Source of the DNA: Fictibacillus sp. FJAT-27399
Lineage (GTDB): Bacteria; Bacillota; Bacilli; Bacillales; Fictibacillaceae
Length of the DNA stretch: 64,000 nucleotides
Assembly: GCF_001510655.1 (NCBI RefSeq)
Contig: NZ_LMVC01000004.1
Span: 209,459 to 273,458, forward strand
Direction of reading: 5' to 3'
Part shown: in pieces, positions 1,140 to 57,572 of the stretch
Layout: every line of letters begins with the position of its first letter
Numbering within the stretch: position 1 is the first letter of the stretch
Program-made: the position numbers and the translations under genes
Notes under the pieces: generated by a model
Seen by the model: only the letters and a program-made list of their open reading frames with translations
Told to the model about the DNA's origin: nothing
Databases searched by the model: none

Positions 1140-1156
1140 GGGGTGGTTTCTAAAAG

Positions 1157-1366
1157 ATTGTTGCTTTGGGAACATTTTTGTAAAGTGCCTTCTTTGACAA
1201 GTTGATTGTAGTGCAAGGTGCGAGACTCCTGCGGGACAAGCGTGACAGGTGAAACCCGCAGGCGCTTGCGCCGAGGGGTTCAGCGCACGCCCCGCGAAAG
1301 TAGGCGTTTACGCCGGTAAAAGCGAGCATCCTGGAACGGAAATCAACTACTATCAAGAGCAACAAA
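1157..1366 (-). repeat. GCTCGC-core interspersed element, copy A
   Basis: This copy is on the minus strand relative to the copies at 14386, 28727 and 63381. Read on that strand, the shared core runs from TTGATTTCCGTTCCAGG through GCTCGCTTT, TGCGCCTGCGGG and CAGGAGTCTCGCACCTTGCA to CAATCAACTT. The ends carry an imperfect inverted pair (TTGTTGCTCTT against AAAGCAACAA). The open frames inside it are by-products of GC-rich repeat sequence and are not called as genes. Confidence 0.75.
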
Positions 1367-1405
1367 AGTTACGAATACAGCCTAAAAAAAATTCGAGCGC
1401 ACCAT

Positions 1406-4932: not shown

Positions 4933-6057
4933 ATGCCAAACGAAAATGATGGAAAATCCCCTGAATCCAGCGAGCCGTTATCAAAGGAAGAACTAAAAAA
5001 ACAGGCAGCTGCTGAAGCAAAAGCGAAAGCCCTGGAGCTTGCCAGACAAAGAGCTCTCGAGAAAAAAGAGGAGAGCGGTGGTCCCGCCCAGGAACTAAGC
5101 ATTGAGGAACAAAAGAAAAAAGCTGTCGCAGAAGCTAAAGCGAAAGCTGCTGAACTAGCAAAGCAAAAAGCTTTAAGACAAAAAGAAGAAACATCAAGCA
5201 CTCCGGAGGATCCTTTGGCTGATGAAAAAGCAAAGGCAGCTGCTAAAGCAAAAGCCGCTGCAGCCGCAAAGGCAAAAGCTGCCGCAGCCGCCAAAGCAAG
5301 AGCAGCCAGAGATGGAACAGCAGACTCATCTAACCGAGCGGACGACGAAAAAGCAAAGGCAGCTGCTAAAGCAAAAGCCGCTGCAGCCGCAAAGGCCAAA
5401 GCAGCCGCTGCTGCCAAAGCAAGAGCAGCCAGAGAGGGAGCAGCAGACACATCCCATCCTTCCGACGAAAAAGCAAAGGCTATTGCTGCTGCTAAAGCGA
5501 AAGCCGCCGCTGCCGCCGCTGCAAGAGCCAAAGCTGCCACAGCCAAGACAGAGGTGCCAGCTGAAGAACAAAAGCCATCTCCGTTACAACCGCTTCTTGA
5601 CCGTTATGTCAGCGTGATCAAGAAGACATTGGGGGAAGATGTGCTTGAAGACAGCTACATCAATCCGCTTTCCAAGGATGCTCCGACCCTTGTTGCCAAA
5701 CCGGATACATATTTTAAAATTGCCGAACTTCTTAAACACCACGATGAACTTCGTTTTGATTATTTGTCAGAACTTCACGCCACAGATTTTGAAACTCACC
5801 TAGAGGTCTACAATCATTTTTATTCCTACACACATCGCAGTCCAGTTGCATTAAAAGTAAGAATCAATAGAGAAGAAGCAGTCATTGACTCATTAGCTCC
5901 CCTTTGGGCGGGGGCTGACTGGCCGGAAAGAGAAGCCTTCGACCTGCTGGGAATCACCTTTACCGGGCATCCGAACTTAACGAGGATTATGATGCCTGAT
6001 GATTGGGTGGGCCATCCGCTCCGCAAAGATTATGAACCGTATGATGTGGAGGTGTAG
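4933..6057 (+). CDS. nuoC: NADH-quinone oxidoreductase subunit C with Ala/Lys repeat extension
   Basis: A peripheral-arm subunit of complex I. Only the last 160 or so residues (from PLQPLLDRYVSVIKK) look like the NuoC 30-kDa domain, including the signature DWPEREAFDLLGI and the end HPLRKDYEP. The first 210 residues are low-complexity: Lys/Glu-rich helices, then three copies of a roughly 40-residue block of EKAKAAAKAKAAAAAK type. At DNA level the blocks begin at 5221, 5344 and 5464. The tail should be highly helical and basic. The frame is intact and lies in operon order three bases after nuoB, so the extension is genuinely translated. Its role is unknown. Confidence 0.93.
   Translation: MPNENDGKSPESSEPLSKEELKKQAAAEAKAKALELARQRALEKKEESGGPAQELSIEEQKKKAVAEAKAKAAELAKQKALRQKEETSSTPEDPLADEKAKAAAKAKAAAAAKAKAAAAAKARAARDGTADSSNRADDEKAKAAAKAKAAAAAKAKAAAAAKARAAREGAADTSHPSDEKAKAIAAAKAKAAAAAAARAKAATAKTEVPAEEQKPSPLQPLLDRYVSVIKKTLGEDVLEDSYINPLSKDAPTLVAKPDTYFKIAELLKHHDELRFDYLSELHATDFETHLEVYNHFYSYTHRSPVALKVRINREEAVIDSLAPLWAGADWPEREAFDLLGITFTGHPNLTRIMMPDDWVGHPLRKDYEPYDVEV
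5221..5545 (+). repeat. Three tandem ~120-bp repeats inside nuoC
   Basis: Units begin GATGAAAAAGCAAAGGC at 5221, GACGAAAAAGCAAAGGC at 5344 and the same at 5464, with spacings of 123 and 120 bp (41 and 40 codons). All changes keep the reading frame. The first two units are nearly identical over about 100 bp, so copy number may vary between strains. Confidence 0.85.
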
Positions 6058-14385: not shown

Positions 14386-14637
14386 GGGGGCTGTCCAAGA
14401 AGTCTGGTAGCTGTTGATCTCCGCTCCAGGCTGCTCGCTTTCCGCGGGGCGTGCGGTGAGCCTTACCGGCGTGAACGCCTACTTTTTGGCGCAAGCGCCT
14501 GCGGGAGTCTCACCTGTCACGCTAGTCCCGCAGGAGTCTCGCACCTTGCACTCCAATCAACTTTTCATTGAAGATTTTTCACGTCAAAGGAGCTGCCTGA
14601 AGGTCAATTTTCGACTTTCAGGACAGCCCCTTTTTTT
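14386..14637 (+). repeat. GCTCGC-core interspersed element, copy B
   Basis: This copy starts immediately after the nuoN stop with GGGGGCTGTCC and ends GGACAGCCCC plus seven T, so the ends are inverted repeats. Inside lies the shared core (GCTCGCTTTCCGCGGGGCG to CACTCCAATCAAC). The last 60 bp form a strong hairpin and T run. The open frame across it is an artefact. The remaining 14638-14818 before ywzB shows nothing I can name. Confidence 0.8.
14588..14637 (+). terminator. Terminator of the nuo operon, supplied by element B
   Basis: GGAGCTGCCTGAAGGTC pairs (with G-T pairs) with GACTTTCAGGACAGCCCC around AATTTTC, followed by TTTTTTT. The same hairpin recurs at 63550-63600. It is the only terminator-like structure after nuoN. 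Confidence 0.8.
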
Positions 14638-21443: not shown

Positions 21444-21477
21444 AAAGCAGCCCGCGATGTGCGGGCTGCTTTTTTTG
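21444..21477 (+). terminator. spoIIQ terminator
   Basis: AAGCAGCCCGC and GCGGGCTGCTT form the stem around GATGT, with seven T after. Confidence 0.9.
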
Positions 21478-21507: not shown

Positions 21508-21639
21508 ATGAAAATGATGTGCTTTGCAAGTAAAGTCCTCAATTTCGCAAGTAAACAGGACATTTTCGCAAGTAAACGAGGCATAATCGCAAGTAAACAG
21601 AGCATTTTCGCAAGTAAACCTTGCCAAACTGCAAGTAAT
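21508..21639 (+). repeat. 21-bp phased GCAAGTAA array 1
   Basis: GCAAGTAA occurs at 21526, 21547, 21568, 21589, 21610 and 21631: six times at exactly 21-bp spacing, with variable 12-13 bp between. The array is preceded by an 18-bp leader ATGAAAATGATGTGCTTT at 21508. The array at 31924 has the same leader, offset and copy number. The frame through it is open (each unit reads ASK or ASN) but the ATG has no ribosome site, so I treat it as DNA-level repeat. Confidence 0.85.
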
Positions 21640-21682: not shown

Positions 21683-21841
21683 AGCGCTTGTCGGGCCTAA
21701 CCAGGTCCTTCAGCTTTTCTCGATCCAGCTTCAGGACCCAGGCCCTCGAGTCCCTTCACTCTCCCACCTCAACACAAAGAGCGTGTTGCTGTGTGAGAGT
21801 TCCAGCGCTTGTCGGGCCTAACCAGGTCCTTCAGCTTTTCT
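21683..21841 (+). repeat. 38-bp direct duplication
   Basis: A 38-bp segment beginning AGCGCTTGTCGGGCCTAACC and ending CAGCTTTTCT occurs at 21683-21720 and at 21804-21841 without a mismatch. GAGAGTT precedes both copies two bases upstream. The 83 bp between contain AGGACC and GGCCCTCGAG-type sequence and no gene. From 21842 to spoIIID I see no clear element. Confidence 0.85.
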
Positions 21842-28726: not shown

Positions 28727-28967
28727 AAAAAAAGGCTGTTTGTAACCATTGTTGCTCTTAGGAGTGGTTGATTTCCGTTTCAGGATGCTCGCTTTCCTCG
28801 GGACGGGCGGTGAGCCTTACCGGCGCAAGCGCCTACCTCCTCGGCGCATGGCGCCTGTGGGTCTCCACCTGTCCCGCATCTCCCGCAGGAGTCTCGCACC
28901 TGGCACTCCAATCAACATGTAATGAAGGCTCTTTTCCCAAAGCCTTTTAGAACGGCCTTTAAAAAAG
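28727..28967 (+). repeat. GCTCGC-core interspersed element, copy C
   Basis: The core reads GTTGATTTCCGTTTCAGG, GCTCGCTTTCC and CCCGCAGGAGTCTCGCACCT to CTCCAATCAAC. The left flank TTGTTGCTCTTAGG matches copy A, while the AAAAAGGCTGTTT / AACGGCCTTTAAAAA ends are degenerate inverted repeats. The open frame at 28768-28950 is an artefact. The rest of 28573-28727 holds the asnB upstream region with four near-tandem GTTTAC/GTTAAC hexamers. Confidence 0.75.
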
Positions 28968-31375: not shown

Positions 31376-31885
31376 ATGGTGAATATAAGAGAGGCACTTC
31401 TTCGCGATTTGCCAGCTATCTTGGACATATATAATGATGCGATAAAAACGCTGACGGCTACATTTGATCTGGAAGAGCAGACACTTGAAGAACGAAAGGT
31501 TTGGTTTGAAAAATACGGCGGCGACTTTCCGCTGATTGTTGCGAAACTGGACGGCAAAGTGGCGGGATACTGCTGTCTTAGCCCGTTCAGAGATAAAGCG
31601 GCCTATTCCCGCACAACTGAATTATCATTATACATATCTTCTGAATTCCGCGGCCAAGGGATCGGCAATGCCTTAATGGAGGATATTCTGAAAAGGGCGG
31701 CTGATCTTGGCTACCATACCGTAATCAGCAGCATTACGGGCGGAAACGAAGCGAGTGTAAAACTGCATAAAAAGTTTGGCTTCGAATTTGCCGGCAACTT
31801 TAAAGAAGTAGGCTACAAATTTGATGAGTGGCAGGATGTTCACTTTTACCAGCTCATGCTGAACACAGAAAAAACGAAGGGATAA
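31376..31885 (+). CDS. GNAT N-acetyltransferase, phosphinothricin-acetyltransferase type
   Basis: An acetyl-CoA-dependent acetyltransferase of 169 residues. IREALLRDLPAILDIYNDAI and TFDLEEQTLEERKVWF are typical of the Pat/YwnH-like branch; the acetyl-CoA loop is EFRGQGIGNALM, and GGNEASVKLHKKFGFEFAG closes the fold. Members acetylate phosphinothricin or methionine sulfoximine-like amines; the real substrate here is not determined. The start at 31376 follows AGGAGGAATATC, rather than five codons upstream. The stop lies inside a terminator hairpin. Confidence 0.88.
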   Translation: MVNIREALLRDLPAILDIYNDAIKTLTATFDLEEQTLEERKVWFEKYGGDFPLIVAKLDGKVAGYCCLSPFRDKAAYSRTTELSLYISSEFRGQGIGNALMEDILKRAADLGYHTVISSITGGNEASVKLHKKFGFEFAGNFKEVGYKFDEWQDVHFYQLMLNTEKTKG

Positions 31886-31907
31886 GCGTTCCCTTCGTTT
31901 TTTTGAT
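31874..31907 (+). terminator. Acetyltransferase terminator
   Basis: ACGAAGGG and CCCTTCGT pair around ATAAGCGTT, followed by TTTTTT; the stop codon is in the loop. Confidence 0.85.
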
Positions 31908-31923: not shown

Positions 31924-32055
31924 ATGAAAATGATGTGTTTTGCAAGTAAGTCTTGTCGAACCGCAAGTAACACGACGATTTCTGCAAGTAAAGCTTGTCG
32001 AATCGCAAGTAATAGAGCAGTTTCCGCAAGTAATACGTGTCGAACCGCAAGTAAA
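31924..32055 (+). repeat. 21-bp phased GCAAGTAA array 2
   Basis: GCAAGTAA occurs at 31942, 31963, 31984, 32005, 32026 and 32047, six copies at exactly 21 bp, behind the leader ATGAAAATGATGTGTTTT at 31924. The spacers alternate between a TTGTCGAACC type and an ACGATTTCT/GAGCAGTTTCC type, so there is also a 42-bp super-period. It lies between the acetyltransferase terminator and the convergent OmpA/MotB-like gene. Confidence 0.85.
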
Positions 32056-57522: not shown

Positions 57523-57572
57523 GGTGCCAGGCACCGACCTTAAGGCACCGACATTACCGGCACCGACATTAC
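57523..57572. repeat. Degenerate GGTGCC element with tandem GGCACCGACATTACC
   Basis: One standard arm (57523-57535) is followed by three direct repeats of about 15 bp (GGCACCGACCTTAA, then GGCACCGACATTACC and CGGCACCGACATTACC). The right arm and centre are missing. Confidence 0.8.

Follow-up and report, generated by a model that had tools for sequence, protein, structure and literature searches.

The window, i.e. the whole stretch of 64,000 nucleotides of the Fictibacillus sp. FJAT-27399 genome analysed here, contains two arrays in which the box GCAAGTAA recurs with a 21-bp period, and the question they raise is whether they are DNA sites for a protein, a coding sequence, an RNA element or a family of interspersed repeats.

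Architecture and copy number of the arrays

The coordinates, copy number, period and leader given for both arrays in a preliminary description of the window proved exact (table 1). On its plus strand the window has 12 GCAAGTAA sites, every one inside the two arrays, against ~1.3 expected per strand, and the pattern of two boxes at a 21-bp distance has 10 matches against 0.62 expected, a number reached in none of 100 shuffles. The leaders of the two arrays consist of ATGAAAATGATGTG followed by CTTT or TTTT; homologous leader sequence reaches further, to about position -21 (TTTATGAAAATG...), and the element as a whole comprises this leader of ~21 bp in total and a six-box tract of 113 bp. The proposed position of both arrays after a gene terminator holds in so far as a perfect stem with a T-run can be read upstream of each, although a strict terminator scan lists neither. 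No Rfam families were found in the window.

Table 1. Coordinates of the two arrays and their associated features in the window.
Feature	Position	Strand	Remarks
Terminator-like hairpin + T-run	21444..21476	+	follows spoIIQ, with 31 bp between it and the leader of array 1; AAAGCAGCCCGC-GATGT-GCGGGCTGCTTTTTTT; by reading
Leader of array 1	21508..21525	+	ATGAAAATGATGTGCTTT
Array 1	21526..21638	+	six GCAAGTAA boxes, steps 21, 21, 21, 21, 21 bp; orthologue at G023:C2:4140225
Box starts of array 1	21526, 21547, 21568, 21589, 21610, 21631		21526+21n, n=0-5
Terminator-like hairpin + T-run	31873..31904	+	overlaps the end of the GNAT acetyltransferase gene; AACGAAGGGA-TAAGCGT-TCCCTTCGTTTTTTT; by reading
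Leader of array 2	31924..31941	+	ATGAAAATGATGTGTTTT
Array 2	31942..32054	+	six GCAAGTAA boxes, 21-bp steps
Box starts of array 2	31942, 31963, 31984, 32005, 32026, 32047		31942+21n, n=0-5

The 12-13 bases between the boxes had been described as varying, which is true of a part of them only. In a logo of 90 units, where positions 1-8 are nearly invariant partly because the box was used to find the arrays, positions 10-12 are free, but positions 16-21 carry information too: position 18 is always A/T, position 19 mostly A/T, position 20 a pyrimidine and position 21 mostly C. The A/T pair at positions 18-19 lies ~10.5 bp from the AAA at positions 7-9, in keeping with a one-face geometry. In Psychrobacillus this signal does not stand out.

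Further arrays with the same period, on which the preliminary description had staked its interpretation, do exist. Genome-wide, the box-pair pattern (up to two mismatches) has 89+44 matches compared with 8+6 for the reversed pattern, and the pattern of leader plus box has 20 compared with 0 in the control; the search revealed at least 22 arrays with a leader, which were read with their surroundings and then counted by one uniform rule, giving 22. All 22 have six boxes, and their steps measure 21 bp in 107 of 110 cases, 20 bp in two and 22 bp in one, so that the strict helical phasing claimed before describes nearly all steps, but 20- and 22-bp steps are tolerated and an array of Neobacillus has a period of 20 bp. 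The conspecific genome G023 contains 20 arrays, 19 of which entered the uniform count (16 with six boxes), and the congener G021 has six in 12 of 13. The orthologue of window array 2 in G023 has lost one 21-bp unit and retains five boxes; the number six is near-fixed, not absolute.

Other repeats occur in the window as well. The gap between spoIIQ and spoIIID that harbours array 1 also holds two exact copies of GCGCTTGTCGGGCCTAACCAGG, 121 bp apart (21684-21705 and 21805-21826), and in G020 and G021 this gap is occupied by other blocks (CCTTCCAATGCTGATCGCC...CAGCTTTTC). A GC-rich dispersed repeat of ~200 bp, with copies ~80% alike, lies at 1147-1383 (-), 14405-14582 (+) and 28730-28934 (+), and again near arrays in loci L136 and L140/L193. 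We also note an imperfect 123-bp tandem repeat of coding look, rich in K/A (5224-5516), and about three copies of the 15-bp repeat CAGGCACCGACATTA (57528-57572).

Gene context and the peptide and RNA readings

In the gene context, sampled around arrays only, the majority of arrays lie 3' of a gene with the same direction, and a few between divergent genes. A terminator-like hairpin stands upstream of 15 of the 22 own arrays, and several arrays are located behind rRNA operons, three of them directly after the 5S rRNA. The ten neighbouring genes examined have mixed housekeeping functions and share no common theme.

An open plus frame in both window arrays, the equality of 21 bp and seven codons, and the existence of viral contigs with coding-looking ASN/AST repeats of 21 bp could all suggest that the arrays encode a heptad-repeat peptide. 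However, the leader frame is stopped inside the array in 10 of 22 own arrays, 10 of 19 in G023 and 12 of 13 in G021, the 20- and 22-bp steps shift the frame, and the lack of a ribosome site before the arrays, reported earlier and upheld here, likewise counts against a peptide. We therefore rejected this reading on account of the stops and frame shifts, consider its probability negligible, and find the earlier view of the arrays as non-coding borne out. An action as RNA, in which an unstructured tract of six sites in the 3' UTR would be bound by an RNA-binding protein, seems very improbable. The arrays are mostly co-oriented with the upstream gene and unpaired sites would be accessible, but most arrays come only after a terminator-like hairpin, and the few that are placed between divergent genes mean that a role in the 3' UTR cannot be general. 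Nor was a conserved RNA fold of the arrays detected (alifold 0; mean z -0.08, no excess stability). Permuting the spacers among arrays made a weak difference only, and pairing between neighbouring spacers, tempting by eye, did not hold up.

Constraint, turnover and spread

Orthologous arrays of the window genome and G023 differ at 4 of 624 box positions and 39 of 793 spacer positions (flanks 3.2%; P = 1e-6), a comparison from which the motif rule left out two array pairs; with these added and the one-unit deletion of window array 2 scored as substitutions, the counts are 11/720 for boxes and 52/858 for spacers (P = 2e-6). Overall, the boxes have thus diverged between the strains by 0.6-1.5% and the spacers by 5-6% (P ~2e-6), and the box is therefore constrained more than the spacer. 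Such box-specific purifying selection, expected of a protein-binding DNA array, was indeed found. Four spacers in three arrays have been replaced between the strains, with the count of six boxes retained. At a larger distance, congeners keep the array, whole or partial, at the catalase, msrAB and permease loci though the flanks are only ~69-82% identical, and the L140 array shows two differences from its orthologue in G025 with flanks just 87-88% identical. In the array at L193:1501-1613, G025 and the window genome exhibit 2 differences, with flanks 12-13% diverged; the spacers seem to be constrained as well at this locus.

Individual loci are less stable. In G025 the array 1 locus has decayed to a leader with GTGAGTAA, GTGAGTAA and GCAAGTAA behind spoIIQ, and of the array 2 locus a single box is left downstream of the GNAT gene. 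In what was read of G020 and G021, neither window locus has an array, nor does the stretch read at the spoIIID site of G022, the minus-strand loci of G023, G024 and G028 being uninformative in this comparison since the sequence read there lies on the opposite side of the gene. Three own arrays are absent from G023, where the adjacent intergenic DNA differs as well; these loci are no clean empty sites, and a clean mobile insertion was rejected on this basis. The congener G022 yielded no arrays by pattern or by profile, so that members of the genus can do without the element. The element class thus persists while single loci are gained, lost or decay.

Beyond the genus, searching the GTDB species genomes for three boxes in exact form gave matches mainly in Bacillales (Psychrobacillus, Ureibacillus, Fictibacillus, Planococcus, Kurthia, Neobacillus, Metabacillus, Peribacillus), those outside the order being isolated tandem or coding coincidences. 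Within the order, the exact pattern occurs in 7 of 397 genomes surveyed (reversed control 0), and a sequence-only profile of 36 elements finds candidate matches in 25 of 249 genomes at E <= 1e-6, the E-values being rough. The 19 profile-matched loci that were read contain related boxes, e.g. GCAAGTATT, GGCAAGTAAA and GGACAGTAAA, at ~20-21 bp; in other genera the spacing is not always 21 bp and some arrays are long tandems. Psychrobacillus has six boxes in 27 of 38 chains, three more showing six and a weak seventh, and its leader TTTGGAAAAATTATCCGTTTC gives an ungapped alignment with TTTATGAAAATGATGTGTTTT. The leader-plus-six architecture is the same in this genus, and the leaders are homologous. 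The sequences of the G025 arrays match those of loci in F. terranigra.

Higher-order tandem arrays were seen in L048 (226-bp super-unit) and L034 (102-bp super-unit), Psychrobacillus repeating the whole element and Ureibacillus mixing GCAAGTAA and GCAAATAA units. The viral contigs L122, L124-L127 and L129 match the 21-bp GCAAGTAA pattern via ASN/AST repeats; these look like coding tail-fibre repeats and call for caution in pattern searches. No similar plasmid or phage records were matched, and an origin of the arrays from a phage or plasmid was rejected for this reason.

Chromosomal placement and candidate role

On the one closed chromosome used for position tests, that of G023 (4,354,756 bp, with dnaA as its first ORF), 16 of the 20 arrays lie within 0.6 Mb of oriC, a zone making up 27.6% of the chromosome (P = 2e-6), and none between 1.25 and 3.15 Mb. 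Once the array at 1.24 Mb and four rRNA-linked ones are dropped, 12 of the remaining 15 fall inside this 0.6-Mb zone. Seventeen of the 20 are co-oriented with replication, pointing away from the origin (P = 0.003), although array orientation may be secondary to the direction of the genes, which are often co-oriented with replication themselves. In G021, 16 of 24 arrays are found on two contigs of together 734 kb (P = 1e-8), which, by synteny, are inferred to lie near the origin. For distant genera with closed genomes, the array matches seem scattered.

Interspersed repeats are common in bacteria and mostly without known function. The nearest described class, the STAR elements of staphylococci, shares with our arrays interspersed intergenic direct repeats with a short conserved box and variable spacers specific to each locus, numerous loci in a genome, a patchy occurrence among species and the lack of a known function (PMC3532100). 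The STAR box, however, is a GC-rich 14-bp sequence, T(G/A/T)TGTTG(G/T)GGCCC(C/A), with spacers that measure 40 bp or more, units of ~50 nt and variable copy number (PMC3532100). The box here is the 8-bp GCAAGTAA, with 13-bp spacers, 21-bp phasing, a conserved leader, a mostly origin-proximal location and usually six boxes (22/22 arrays in one strain and 16/19 in the other, window array 2 with its five boxes in G023 being an exception); the arrays agree with STAR elements in being intergenic and dispersed, with locus-specific spacers. As box, unit length and near-fixed number differ, we classify the arrays not as STAR elements but as a new family within this broad kind. REP/BIME repeats are built of a palindromic unit that forms a stable hairpin; they and the bcr-type repeats resemble the arrays in having many intergenic copies, often behind genes, whereas the arrays have no inverted repeat or hairpin and consist of many direct boxes in one orientation. 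Plasmid iterons are direct repeats of ~20-22 bp bound by a dedicated protein, and centromere arrays of the parC/tubC type are likewise direct repeats; those belong to a replicon with its Rep/Par gene, whereas here there are more than 20 dispersed chromosomal copies, there is no similar plasmid record, and the ten neighbours examined include no gene for partition or replication. CRISPR, defined by long repeats with unique spacers beside cas genes, was rejected in view of the 8-bp box, the partly constrained spacer and the lack of a cas-like gene among the same ten neighbours.

The dispersal of the arrays as a repeat family, absent from the preliminary description, is evident, and a REP- or STAR-like family of dispersing and decaying copies, which would owe its persistence to copying and not to a host function and whose boxes the copying machinery would recognize, is a serious rival to a protein-site reading, even if we hold it to be the less probable of the two. 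It would account for dispersed copies that share leader and spacer subfamilies in one genome of Psychrobacillus, tandem copies of the whole element there, presence and absence varying between conspecific strains and congeners, and the patchy spread (25/249 genomes). It is less easily reconciled with the constraint on boxes in old orthologous copies, the several loci kept across species, the clustering and co-orientation around the origin, the absence of a stable hairpin, and the three absent loci that are not clean empty sites. A more specific explanation would tie the arrays to Spo0A, with sites fused to a 0A-box core (TGTCGAACCGCAAGTA) and Spo0A~P loading the arrays at sporulation onset, e.g. 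for handling of the origin region. Its basis is the heptamer TGTCGAA, the core of the 0A box (PMC3485338), which occurs in numerous spacers of this genus, mostly 1, 3 and 5 (as in window array 2), and at alternate spacers in most arrays of G021; the genome contains 33 exact composite sites GCAASTAWNNNNTGTCGAA, at array coordinates, versus 1 for the reversed pattern. Yet several arrays, including window array 1, and the spacers of Psychrobacillus have no such core, and its conservation between strains does not exceed that of the remaining spacer bases (5/147 vs 25/520, P = 0.65). We rate a tie of the arrays to Spo0A as improbable, though as a lead worth keeping.

We thus lean slightly towards a dispersed, non-coding element of double-stranded DNA sites for a putative protein, as opposed to a peptide or a structured RNA. 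Constraint concentrated on the boxes, the rule of six, the phasing and the lack of an RNA or peptide signal together point to side-by-side protein binding on DNA. Of the earlier proposal of cooperative protein sites on one face, the sites on one helical face, with a box under purifying selection, are retained, while cooperativity is putative only. A sequence-specific DNA-binding protein would occupy the six boxes side by side, and the occupied boxes might form a cooperative nucleoprotein block or bend. From the placement past terminators and close to the origin we surmise a positional role, which may be the organization of the origin region or the insulation or marking of transcription-unit ends.

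A fuller scenario, which we offer as speculation and rate as rather unlikely in its entirety, is a chromosomal site system of Bacillales in which GCAAGTAA-type hexads around the origin would be loaded by a putative protein into an ordered nucleoprotein block that organizes or anchors the origin region, here possibly coupled to sporulation via the fused 0A boxes. In the literature searched, which included few subscription journals, we found no description of GCAAGTAA arrays or of similar Bacillus repeats, yet the element recurs in distinct genera and, in a looser form, across Bacillales. Its rigid architecture, the constraint on its boxes and its biased position and direction make its function directly testable.
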